A stretch of DNA of 33,572 nt from contig JAJZGI010000026.1 of the NCBI GenBank assembly GCA_021798575.1, forward strand, positions 1 to 33,572, written 5' to 3'. Position 1 is the first letter of the stretch, and each line of letters begins with the position of its first letter. Of the stretch, positions 1,931-4,652 are shown one piece after another. Source of the DNA: Pseudomonadota bacterium (lineage in GTDB: Bacteria; Pseudomonadota; Alphaproteobacteria; Acetobacterales; Acetobacteraceae). Under the pieces are notes generated by a model. The model made no database searches and had not been told where the DNA came from. It saw nothing but the letters and a program-made list of their open reading frames with translations. The position numbers and the translations under genes are program-made.

Positions 1931-2015
1931 GCGCGCTCTAACTCTTTGCTTGGAGGCTGATTTACGATTTCGATTTCCTTGCAAAACGCGTCAACCTCAA
2001 ACGATCAGGCTCTAA

Positions 2016-2034
2016 GGTAGTGTCTCAGTTTGAA
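2016..2034 (+). repeat. Left terminal inverted repeat of the IS1-like element
   Basis: GGTAGTGTCTCAGTTTGAA is the exact reverse complement of 4565-4583. The target duplication GGCTCTAA is immediately to its left at 2008-2015. It contains the transposase stop codon (2025-2027, minus strand). Confidence 0.92.
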
Positions 2035-2902
2035 ATTCTCTGTTTATAGACGGTTGGGCGAACCGGCTTGGCGGCCCGTGCGTCAATTAGTGTCACCACG
2101 TCTTCCATGGTCCAAAGCGTGGCGCTGACCTTGGCAGCCATCGCAGGGGAACATTTTAGCGTCTTGTGCATCCGCGCGAAATTATACCAAGTGGTGTAGA
2201 GCGCAACCATATGCATATGGTTCTCGACCTTTTTACTGAACCCGTTCGTTAACCGGGTAAACCGGCGCATGGACATGCGCATGGTAAGGTTCTGGCGTTC
2301 CACATAGCTGGTCGAAATATGTGCCTTGTTAGGCTTGCCCTCAATCGTGTTTTTTTAATGCCGGTGCATTCAGCCGGGCTATATCGGCCAGTCGGTGAAG
2401 GCGTAGGGCCATAGAGCTTCACAAGCTGGGCGTAGTCGATGTCTGAACCAAACGCGCCGTCTACGGCTTCCAGATAGGCTTTCAAACCGTCCGTGGTGAG
2501 TTGCACCCGATTAGCCAAGCGGCTTGCCACATCCTCCATGAACTCGTTCGCATAGCCCGCATCGCGTCCGCCGATCAGGTAAGACACGATCAGCTTGCTA
2601 TCGGCGTCCAGGGCGGTCCAGGTCCATACGTCGCCAGCCTCTTCCGGTGCAGCTTTGGCCGTGGCGACGTTCTTTTGCTTGGCATAGCAGAAGGACCAAA
2701 TTTCATCGGCCTGAATGCGCTTGGAAGCCACGTTCCGCACCGTGCGGTCGTGATGGTCGGCGCAGGCTTTCCCAGCGTCCACAAGCAGCCCCGACACCGT
2801 GTTGATGCTCACATCTACCACGCGGGAGATCGACCGCATGGAGGAGCCTTCCACCAGCATGGAGAGGATTTGGACGCGCTTGGCGAGCGGGAGCTTGTTC
2901 AT
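2025..2902 (-). pseudogene. IS1-family-like transposase, reading frame broken near 2350
   Basis: The start at 2902 gives MNKLPLAKRVQILSMLVEG, then a helix-turn-helix (SMRSISRVVDVSINTVSGLL), then the DDE-type core with QADEIWSFCYAKQKN (first Asp), TTDGLKAYL (second Asp) and YSPAECTGIKK. After GIKKTR the frame fails, and the conserved continuation (IEGKPNKAHISTSYVERQNLTMRMSM, ending in RISN) is found in the -1 frame down to a TGA at 2025-2027. The switch lies at a run of seven A on the coding strand (2350-2356). A one-base deletion restores collinearity best. Programmed -1 slippage is known in IS1, but the codon phase around this run is not an ideal slippery heptamer. It is therefore scored as probably inactive unless slippage rescues it. 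Confidence 0.78.
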
Positions 2903-2962
2903 AGTTTTTTCATACTGAATTTTTATTATAATTGCAAGCATAATATCAAGTAATATGAAATA

Positions 2963-2997
2963 TTGACTAACTAAGCACATTACTTTATAAAGTAATG
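2963..2997 (+). promoter_or_regulatory. Promoter with overlapping 20-bp palindromic operator for the passenger ATPase
   Basis: TTGACT (2963-2968), a 17-bp spacer and TATAAA (2986-2991) form a near-consensus sigma-70 promoter reading towards the ATPase start at 3017. The -10 hexamer sits inside a perfect 20-bp palindrome, CATTACTTTATAAAGTAATG (2978-2997). A regulator bound there would block RNA polymerase, so repression of the passenger gene is likely. Which protein binds is not shown by the sequence. Confidence 0.65.
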
Positions 2998-3016
2998 ATC
3001 TTACTTGGAGATTTTT

Positions 3017-4285
3017 ATGGCTAAGATGACGGACGAAGACTGGGTGTCTTTGGGATTTGAGGCTGGTCAATTATTCAGCCCTGCTGCTCCAATAGATGAA
3101 AAAGACCTATTTGCGGGTCGTCGGGTTCAGATCGCCAAAATGCTCGAAGCCGTTAGCGAGAAGGGTAAGCACGCAGTCCTTTTTGGGGAACGTGGCGTAG
3201 GTAAAACATCACTTGGTCGTGTATTTCATGCGATGTTTCCTAAGACACTTCGACATATCCTTGCCGCAAGGGAGCAGGTTGATCCATCGGACGACTTTTC
3301 TTCCATTTGGCGAAAGGTTTTTAAGGATTTGCGCGTAAGATCAATTACAGCAAGTGAGGAATCTCCCCACGAACCTTTGGCAAACGACTACCCTGGGCAG
3401 ATCATGCCAGATGATATTCGGAGAGAATTTCAGGATATTTTCGGCCCAAATGACTTGCCAATTATTATAATTGACGAATTTGATAAGGCTCGCGAATCTG
3501 CGGACAAAAAAATTCACGAGACGATGGCCAACACAATTAAACACTTATCAGACTACGCCATTAATGCGACAATTATCATTGTCGGTGTTGCTGACGATGT
3601 AAACGATCTTATAGGTGAACATCCATCTATTAGCCGATGCCTTGAACAAATACCGATGCCCCGAATGACTAAAGATGAACTCCGAGAAGTTATAGACAAG
3701 CGCCTTCCTCGGTTGGGAATGAAAATGGATGGAGATGCTTACTGGAAGATAATAGAATTATCTCGGGGTTTACCTTCATATGTTCATTTGCTGGGTCTCT
3801 ACTCCTCGCAGGCGGCAATTAAGCGAAAAAGCCTAATGATTGTAGAGAGTGATGTCGATACGGCAATTCAACGGGCATTAGAAAAATCACAAGAATCTAC
3901 GCAAGCAGATTATAACGCGGCTATCCATAGCAATCGATCCGACAATTTATATCGGCACGTCCTGCTCGCTTGTGCGCTTGCAAAAACCGATGAACGCGGA
4001 CAGTTTAGCCCAAATTCGGTTGTGGAACCTCTCTCCAGCATACTCCAGAGGCCCGTTAAGATAGACGCATTCCAGCAACACTTAGAAAAATTCATTAAAG
4101 AGGACCGTGGATCAGTCTTAATTCGGCGCGGTAAAGAGCGGGCGTATAAGTTTCGCTTTCGCGACCCAATGATGCAACCGTATGTCATCATGCGCGGGAT
4201 TGATGAGAAGCTAATTCCTACGTCTTATCTTTCTGTTTTGTCTTTTCCTGCACAGACTGAACTTGACCTTCCCAGCGTGTCTTAG
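3017..4285 (+). CDS. IS passenger: Orc1/Cdc6-like AAA+ ATPase of unknown role
   Basis: A 422-aa protein. The Walker A motif GERGVGKT is at about residues 57-64, Walker B IIIIDEFD at about 149-156, and a sensor-1-like strand (TIIIVGVADD) follows near 190. The segment after that (MTKDELREVIDKRLPRLGM, then GLPSYVHLLGLYSS) resembles the lid of Orc1/Cdc6/TniB-type ATPases. The C-terminal 120 residues, with a KFRFRDPMMQPYVIM end, look like a winged-helix module. No signal peptide or membrane segment is seen, so it should be cytosolic. ATG 3017 follows TTGGAG at good spacing. It lies inside the IS1-like element, divergent from the transposase, and is more AT-rich than its neighbours. It could assist target selection, act on replication origins, or be a defence or addiction ATPase; none of these is demonstrated. 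Confidence 0.85.
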   Translation: MAKMTDEDWVSLGFEAGQLFSPAAPIDEKDLFAGRRVQIAKMLEAVSEKGKHAVLFGERGVGKTSLGRVFHAMFPKTLRHILAAREQVDPSDDFSSIWRKVFKDLRVRSITASEESPHEPLANDYPGQIMPDDIRREFQDIFGPNDLPIIIIDEFDKARESADKKIHETMANTIKHLSDYAINATIIIVGVADDVNDLIGEHPSISRCLEQIPMPRMTKDELREVIDKRLPRLGMKMDGDAYWKIIELSRGLPSYVHLLGLYSSQAAIKRKSLMIVESDVDTAIQRALEKSQESTQADYNAAIHSNRSDNLYRHVLLACALAKTDERGQFSPNSVVEPLSSILQRPVKIDAFQQHLEKFIKEDRGSVLIRRGKERAYKFRFRDPMMQPYVIMRGIDEKLIPTSYLSVLSFPAQTELDLPSVS

Positions 4286-4484
4286 CCGCATTACGAGCTA
4301 TGTCACGTCTGCGCTCGCTGCTTAGGCTGACGGCACGTGCGGCGCCACCCAACTTACCCAGGGCGGCGGCAGCACTGGCAGGGATGGTTGTTTCCTCTTC
4401 CTCCCCCGTCGCGATCCGCATGACCTTCACGGCGTTGCTGATCACGTCGGCAGGGCGCTTCTCGCCTTTGGGTCCTTTAGGCAT
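4218..4484 (-). CDS. IS passenger: small basic conserved protein (PKGEKRPADVI type)
   Basis: 88 aa, very basic. It starts MPKGPKGEKRPADVISNAVKVMRIATGEE and has a central GKLGGAARAVSLSSERRRDIARNAAKTRW segment. The GGxARAxxLSxERRxxIAxxAAxxRW pattern is shared by many small alphaproteobacterial proteins of unknown function, sometimes labelled RNA-binding in databases. The ATG at 4484 is preceded by AGGAG. The last 68 nt overlap the 3' end of the ATPase gene on the opposite strand, so the two transcripts are complementary there. An inverted repeat lies just upstream. A nucleic-acid-binding partner or regulator of the ATPase is possible but unproven. Confidence 0.78.
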   Translation of the reverse strand: MPKGPKGEKRPADVISNAVKVMRIATGEEEETTIPASAAAALGKLGGAARAVSLSSERRRDIARNAAKTRWEGQVQSVQEKTKQKDKT

Positions 4485-4493
4485 GATAATCTC

Positions 4494-4513
4494 CTATGCT
4501 TTACGGTAAGCAT
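4494..4513 (-). promoter_or_regulatory. Inverted repeat upstream of the small basic gene
   Basis: TATGCTT (4494-4500) and AAGCATA (4507-4513) form a 7-bp inverted repeat around a 6-nt centre, about 10 bp upstream of the small gene's start on its 5' side. It could be an autoregulatory operator or a 5' mRNA hairpin. Confidence 0.35.
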
Positions 4514-4564
4514 AAGGCTTGGGGGGTGGAATAGCCAGTTTCAACCCATCTCATTCTTGGGATA

Positions 4565-4583
4565 TTCAAACTGAGACACTACC
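4565..4583 (-). repeat. Right terminal inverted repeat of the IS1-like element
   Basis: The exact reverse complement of 2016-2034, followed directly by the second copy of the 8-bp target duplication GGCTCTAA at 4584-4591. Confidence 0.92.
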
Positions 4584-4652
4584 GGCTCTAAGGGATGCTT
4601 GACAACCTATGGTTGATCTGCTGACGTCGAACCAGTTCAACAGGTTTGTATC

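Follow-up and report, generated by a model that had tools for sequence, protein, structure and literature searches.

Transporter insertion sequences (transporter IS, or tIS) combine the size and the single transposase of an insertion sequence with passenger genes, and are known in several IS families as far as the available excerpts of two accounts extend (PMC9330008, PMC7986276). These excerpts name a single tIS of the IS6 family, with one passenger, whereas in the group reported here passengers are the rule, one companion gene is constant and the cargo is exchangeable. Our starting point is an element located at 2008–4591 of a 33,572-nucleotide stretch of DNA, hereafter the window, which spans positions 1 to 33,572 of contig JAJZGI010000026.1 from a bacterium of the Acetobacteraceae (assembly GCA_021798575.1). 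The element encodes an IS1-type transposase, an AAA+ ATPase and a small basic protein (SBP), and is probably a copy, with a now-broken transposase gene, of an IS1-related, cassette-type transporter insertion sequence.

IS1 itself is characterised by an InsA-type N-terminus and an insA–insB frameshift, and some members of its family have no frameshift. The group has transpos_IS1 as its best NCBIfam match, at scores below the cut-off of that model, and shares with IS1 the 8-bp target duplications and short terminal repeats; in contrast to IS1 it has no InsA start, is mostly single-frame and carries SBP and cargo. Tn7-like elements possess several transposition genes. According to the part of the source at hand (PMC8649781), their fixed ends enclose cargo that varies and includes defence systems; in this they resemble the elements described here, which by comparison have one IS1-type transposase and measure approximately 2.6–4 kb. 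RosmerTA, comprising the RmrT toxin and the protease-domain antitoxin RmrA, is described as a phage defence in the excerpt available (PMC10440598); the RmrA and RmrT matches reported below belong to the cargo of sister elements and not to the window element. The literature searched yielded no IS1-related group that combines passengers as the rule, a constant companion and cargo exchange; ISfinder and subscription papers lay outside this search and may hold one.

Constant ends and an exchangeable cargo slot

Both ends of these elements are constant: one holds a transposase gene that lacks the start of the IS1 model, the other holds SBP, and an exchangeable cargo slot lies between them. In the window element the gene order is transposase (minus strand), an A+T-rich gap of 114 bp (21.9% GC), ATPase (plus strand) and SBP (minus strand), with the following features:

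2008–2015, no strand: target-site duplication GGCTCTAA, copy 1, identical to 4584–4591
2016–2034, plus: terminal inverted repeat GGTAGTGTCTCAGTTTGAA of the transposase end; the same 19-mer terminates many other elements
2037–2357, minus: transposase, C-terminal part in a second frame, 75% identical to residues 183–289 of an intact relative in locus L005
2333–2902, minus: transposase, N-terminal part, IS1-type, 74% identical to residues 1–190 of the intact relative in L005
2350–2356, minus: seven consecutive A on the coding strand (T7 on the plus strand), close to where the frame breaks
2978–2997, no strand: perfect 20-bp palindrome before the ATPase gene, within the gap 2903–3016
3017–4285, plus: cargo AAA+ ATPase, 422 aa, predicted fold near Orc1/Cdc6 and archaeal ATPases
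3185–3211, plus: Walker A, GERGVGKTS; G57, R59, G60, G62, K63 and S65 invariant in 35 aligned rows
3461–3478, plus: Walker B, IIIIDE; D153 and E154 invariant in the same 35 rows
4218–4484, minus: SBP, 88 aa, core gene, overlapping the ATPase gene tail to tail
4496–4513, minus: operator-like dyad ATGCTT-N6-AAGCAT directly before SBP, a perfect copy
4565–4583, minus: terminal inverted repeat of the SBP end, complementary to 2016–2034
4584–4591, no strand: target-site duplication GGCTCTAA, copy 2, identical to copy 1

The terminal repeats are complementary at 19 of 19 positions and the 8-bp direct repeat is exact, the chance of an exact 8-mer at two fixed places being 4^-8; the boundaries proposed in the preliminary description are thus borne out by direct sequence match. 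IMG/VR contains the exact 19-mer in at least 120 stretches; divided according to the base that follows, the searches gave 93 and 52. In the host's family it was present in 21 of 200 genomes, the host being one of them, and the pattern read backwards had no hits. Amongst the loci collected, 56 distinct stretches of 133 to 4724 bp, window included, are bounded by a repeat pair with no more than 4 mismatches per repeat and by exact duplications of 8–9 bp; a transposase signal is present in 41, SBP in 37 and the ATPase in 9. Other elements with both ATPase and SBP between such ends exist, as the preliminary description had proposed to look for. It would have been refuted if homologous IS copies never contained these genes and the ATPase stood in the same chromosomal context without IS ends; homologous elements do contain them, although ATPases at loci without IS ends are common. 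The short stretches amongst the 56 resemble derivatives of the miniature inverted-repeat transposable element (MITE) type: without a full transposase, repeat-bounded and duplication-flanked are L209 (1501–1633, 133 bp) and L047 (277 bp), and further such derivatives of 396–454 bp occur in L030, L076, L098 and L111.

A census blind to cargo gave a consistent picture. With an intact transposase as query, 38 of 385 alphaproteobacterial genomes were positive, host included, and 32 of the 48 match rows were retained with wide flanks; the window's two rows and 14 others, mostly fragments with one near full length (G251:C99), were omitted. Both repeats (up to 5 mismatches) bound 26 of the 32 transposases, and 17 passed a strict boundary test, which allowed each repeat no more than 3 mismatches and required an exact duplication of at least 8 bp; some of the others run off their contigs. 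All 17 strict elements contain SBP and their sizes range from 2653 to 4021 bp. Across all sources, 63 of 82 distinct transposases possess both repeats (up to 5 mismatches, duplication optional), the complete elements L258 and L259 having been left out of the 82 as duplicates of the shorter loci L215 and L235; ATPase rows in this set stem mostly from the ATPase scan, and their frequency in it is not representative. Apart from two short elements (L027 and L079), 61 of the 63 exceed 1.9 kb, and 54 carry SBP. Passenger elements had been considered uncommon in this family; for the present clade that does not hold, and passengers are the rule.

The slot holds RosmerTA-type HTH-M78, P63C, Panacea and BRO/DinD-like proteins, methylases, proteases or the ATPase. 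By similarity to chosen representatives, the 17 strict elements comprise HTH-M78 (RmrA-like) cargo in five, an unknown family (L316 type) in four, one of them with Panacea, a DUF6941 set in two, the ATPase, P63C, BRO/DinD-like and another single type in one each, and unclassified cargo in two. Placement of cargo on the transposase tree is nearly random: 16 ATPase rows need 14 changes (shuffled mean 14.9), 17 HTH-M78 rows need 16 (shuffled 15.6) and seven cargo groups together need 48 (shuffled 51.6; 19 of 200 shuffles as low). The transposases closest to that of the window carry P63C cargo. Within single genomes, two elements of G550 match at 91.4% over 1140 bp of the transposase end, at 80% in the SBP region and at 87% at the tip with nothing shared between, and three elements of G014 match at 88–89% at the transposase end and at 80–82% over a short SBP stretch. 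Since cargo is exchanged between elements it is probably dispensable for transposition, and the elements, having their own ends and such genes, qualify as transporter IS; the ATPase is a passenger within an IS1-type element, as previously described.

When 29 hand-chosen census cargo proteins were compared with PADLOC models (limit 1e-10), four matched RmrA (best 2e-180) and one or two matched RmrT, while PDC-S13 (3.5e-85) and PD-Lambda-2_B (9e-41) had one match each; these are counts per model family rather than per named protein. Cargo of the IMG/VR elements includes a methylase and an AAA_21 protein matching HEC-04 (7e-53), and in the same comparison PADLOC models matched only five of the ten cargo proteins at 1e-3. 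Several cargo types recur or stand out. A family of approximately 250–310 aa is found at L316:7152–7952, L323:6098–6925, L325:5938–6876 and L327:6738–7496, and the one member scanned had no Pfam match. A three-gene set recurs at L310:2463–3790, L321:6011–7343 and L100:4939–6375; the last L310 protein matches DUF6941 and the middle protein appears helix–turn–helix-like by eye. Locus L256, from the host's family, holds a protein kinase and a P22-type antirepressor at 630–1670 and 3464–4063.

The transposase relates the group to IS1 at some distance. Its N-terminal part in the window matches NCBIfam transpos_IS1 at 1.3e-15, yet below the model cut-off, and its C-terminal part matches Pfam DDE_Tnp_IS1 at 2e-4, slightly under the cut-off. 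Transpos_IS1 is the best NCBIfam match of three intact relatives as well (9e-18 to 5e-20, 65–72 bits against a curated cut-off of 100), and their match begins at model position 43–44; the missing start presumably corresponds to the start of InsA. The group displays the terminal inverted repeats and 8–9 bp target duplications expected of the IS1 family and not the InsA-type N-terminus and insA–insB frameshift. We prefer the labels ‘IS1-type’ and ‘IS1-related’ because the match starts at 43–44 and the relatives are mostly single-frame. The window copy of the gene is interrupted close to the T7 run at 2350–2356 and continues in a second frame, a break that the preliminary description had overlooked. 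Full-length relatives mostly have a single open frame of approximately 290–300 aa, a few with a stop, and amongst 84 other distinct relatives whose alignment passes through the same place none has a run of seven A (the longest is 6, in one case), a comparison that required unbroken alignment at the spot and from which relatives broken there would drop out. A conserved programmed frameshift was rejected on these grounds; slippage may occur in the window's single copy.

The small basic protein and the operator-like dyad

SBP had been regarded as a second passenger. Its co-occurrence with the transposase and its presence in all 17 strict census elements led us to reject this view: SBP belongs to the core of the group. 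An independent search located it in 39 of 385 genomes, and 31 of these (host included) are also amongst the 38 transposase genomes (hypergeometric 1e-31); an element end (up to 4 mismatches, flank at most 1.5 kb) lies near 27 of the 30 SBP loci checked out of 49 match rows, window among them. In an alignment of 33 of 36 rows, two blocks are conserved, around RPADVIxNAV..IATGE and LGxxGGxARA...RRxEIAKxAAxxRW. Pfam KGG matched 3 of the 33 rows weakly (best E 0.019), and a PDB profile search returned E values of 0.085 and worse.

The dyad ATGCTT-N6-AAGCAT, scanned with up to 2 of 12 mismatches, occurs 51–73 bp from the SBP-end repeat in 26 of the 63 two-ended elements (shuffles 1.0), 39–45 bp before the transposase start in 26 of 63 (shuffles 0.0) and at both places in 21; the motif was picked after the upstream sequences had been viewed, and these counts are descriptive. 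Elsewhere in the elements there are 12 further sites, close to the shuffle total of 11.4. Elements without SBP have neither the SBP-end dyad (0 of 9, versus 26 of 54 with SBP; Fisher 0.008, relatedness ignored) nor the transposase-promoter dyad (0 of 9). A longer form, TGAAC..ATGCTT-N6-AAGCAT..GTTCA, overlaps the presumed transposase promoter in L187, L135 and others, with enrichment of some of its parts. A single regulator for the two ends would be the simple reading; besides the transposase, SBP is the only constant candidate, and it is the group's probable regulator. SBP, perhaps as a repressor at the ATGCTT-N6-AAGCAT sites of the SBP end and the transposase promoter, would replace InsA and keep transposition low.

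The cargo ATPase

Orc1/Cdc6 initiators and archaeal ATPases are the nearest structural counterparts of the window ATPase, which by contrast is bacterial, orphan or IS-borne, and far below the cut-offs of the corresponding sequence models. It scores E 0.064 and 12.4 bits against Pfam ORC-CDC6-like (PF24389; cut-off 27) and 15.1 bits against TIGR02928 (cut-off 181.3); neither model assigns it to Orc1/Cdc6. The predicted structure contains an AAA+ ATPase domain of Orc1/Cdc6 fold and is closest to archaeal ATPases and Orc1/Cdc6 (2qby, 2v1u, 1w5t, 2qen and 2fna) at 12–17% identity and root-mean-square deviations of 6.4–9.8; this comparison covered the families on the VIA list, and others outside it may match. 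Alignments of the whole model to Orc1/Cdc6 chains extend to model residues 386–401, and a C-terminal winged helix like that of Orc1/Cdc6 is putative. The Walker residues listed above are invariant in an alignment of 35 of 45 rows, window included (L147 and L171 were excluded for stops and eight more left out). The proposal of an Orc1/Cdc6-like ATPase with intact Walker A and B motifs accordingly stands at the level of fold and motifs and hardly at that of sequence.

The ATPase gene is one cargo of the group and also occurs free in chromosomes. A profile search of genome contigs gave 102 relatives, of which 80 were kept; 13 of the 80 adjoin a transposase of this group, in the order transposase (minus), ATPase (plus); SBP (minus) follows in the 11 that show SBP, and exact duplications flank seven of the 80. 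Locus L149 (3684–6791) has the repeats, the duplication, SBP and the ATPase and no transposase match, and resembles a non-autonomous cargo carrier. On a tree of 84 rows, of which 17 are IS-labelled (L172 through a weak match to SBP), IS-borne and other rows are interspersed: 13 changes of state are required, nine or more of them forced by well-supported branches, and the label is slightly clustered (shuffled mean 15.7, 25 of 500 as low). The DNA match of the closest IS-borne and free pairs comprises the gene and approximately 100 bp before it and ends soon after: from −92 to +13 for L129/L130 and from −104 to +61 for L185/L187, other pairs matching within the gene only. A conserved partner gene was considered and rejected, as nothing recurs outside transposase and SBP; amongst the 75 neighbour proteins scanned, of 128 computed neighbour open reading frames, no Pfam family occurs in more than two members. 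Copies without IS ends lie among unrelated genes in L137, L143, L148, L130 and L194, and one contig (PLXO01000024.1) bears two ATPase-carrying elements (L176 and L178).

The region upstream of the gene carries regularly spaced repeats. In the window, TTACTT occurs at 2980 and 3001, 21 bp apart, and two copies of a 6-mer are alone unimpressive. With near-duplicates removed, 21-bp-spaced repeats precede 13 of 16 IS-borne ATPases (shuffle mean 2.0, maximum 5) and 37 of 69 other copies (shuffle mean 9.2, maximum 18), and the next peak in spacing is at lag 42. In a first count, 9-mers present at least three times turned up upstream in 14 of 87 cases, in the downstream controls in 9 of 85 and in the shuffles in 10 of 435, with spacings clustered at 21; a count at lag 21, run after this cluster had been seen, was positive for 52 of the 87 upstream regions and for 21 of the 85 downstream controls. 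The preliminary description credited the ATPase with its own tightly controlled promoter: what lies directly before the gene is the palindrome at 2978–2997, the gap 2903–3016 has no plus-strand match to the sigma-70 consensus, and tight control is conjecture.

Proposed function and rival explanations

The best reading, and in our judgement a probable one, is a cassette-type transporter-IS group that shuttles conflict or defence modules, with SBP as probable regulator; the anatomy is demonstrated and the functions are inferred. Cargo would be retained because, in conflicts with phages or other mobile DNA, it benefits the element as well as the host. A defence or conflict role is the leading and a plausible interpretation for the ATPase, and defence or addiction are plausible because of the company of the other cargo. 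The ATPase might then be a self-regulated DNA-binding switch of Orc1/Cdc6–STAND build that binds the 21-bp-spaced repeats preceding the gene that encodes it and acts upon DNA that is invading or replicating. More tentatively, the data may reflect a large group of minimal IS1-related cassette transposons together with an undescribed single-gene conflict system of Orc1/Cdc6 type. In this bolder version, which we hold to be possible and somewhat doubtful, one transposase, and SBP via a shared operator at both ends, would serve a slot that samples anti-phage and anti-plasmid modules; with similar reserve, the ATPase would be an Orc1/Cdc6-type DNA binder that recognises the 21-bp repeats of its own gene and serves as a switch acting on DNA that is invading or replicating.

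Several observations weigh against a group shuttling conflict modules under SBP control. The best PADLOC match of the ATPase reaches only E 0.0019, only transposase and SBP recur beside it amongst its 80 relatives, 67 of the 84 rows in its tree have no IS link, and the first 9-mer count is barely above its downstream control. SBP has no Pfam family, its dyad is missing at the SBP end of 28 of the 54 SBP-bearing elements, and the window element, with its perfect SBP-end dyad, is without the transposase-promoter copy. Much of the cargo is not obviously defensive (GNAT, protein kinase, proteases, P22-type antirepressor and unknown families), two of the 17 strict elements carry cargo that is unclassified, and the mobility of the window copy itself is putative.

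Amongst the alternatives, we regard as unlikely, although foremost, that the cargo consists mainly of addiction modules guarding the element against loss, anti-phage effects being a by-product: several cargo types are indeed parts of toxin–antitoxin systems (RmrA/RmrT, Panacea), whereas the ATPase has no recurrent partner gene besides SBP and the transposase. Target choice had also been suggested as a role for the ATPase, and it could in principle be a transposition helper, a target selector for the IS1-type transposase akin to TniB, TnsC or MuB. Its score against Pfam TniB is a near miss (22.2 bits, gathering score 22.4); target choice is disfavoured because relatives with exact duplications have transposed without the ATPase, and we consider such a helper improbable. 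We give still less credence to a replication-initiator module in which the Orc1-like ATPase and 21-bp origin-like sites allow an excised circle or the host replicon to replicate or persist. One of the best fold matches, extending over 335 residues, is to Orc1/Cdc6 in complex with origin DNA, and IS-borne as well as other copies have iteron-like repeats immediately in front of the gene, but these repeats are situated in the promoter region and suit autoregulation equally. That the ATPase and the small gene are incidental, enclosed by a one-off capture, would agree with the free occurrence of the ATPase and the single element copy in the host genome; this we rejected as scarcely credible, since the same architecture between the same ends recurs in many genomes, with SBP nearly always present.

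On the favoured reading of a cassette-type transporter IS, the group is of wider interest. Defence genes are known on larger carriers, for example Tn7-like ones in the portion of the account available (PMC8649781), amongst which an IS-type carrier of 2.6–4 kb would rank with the smaller. The carrier is present in 38 of 385 sampled alphaproteobacterial genomes, and its 19-bp ends and SBP mark the slot and would ease mining, any unknown gene inside being a candidate conflict system. An IS1-related lineage without the InsA start offers a test of alternative regulation of IS1-type transposition, and the finding ties a protein of predicted Orc1/Cdc6 fold to mobile DNA in Bacteria.

In the host genome (2.37 Mb, 95 contigs) no second copy of the element was found, the only other match being a 38-base self-match of the palindrome. 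The right flank, used to look for an empty target site, had a single weak and partial match amongst 40 relatives besides the host. The GC content is 56.7% in the transposase gene, 58.4% in SBP and 63.8% in the window to the right of the element; at 45.4%, the ATPase gene deviates even from the rest of the element. Ten window genes outside the element were scanned, nine of which have families and one of which has none, and present an ordinary chromosomal appearance; the flanking families include TetR, LysM, Mg-chelatase, Dus, NtrY, RcpC/CpaB and Mur ligase domains.

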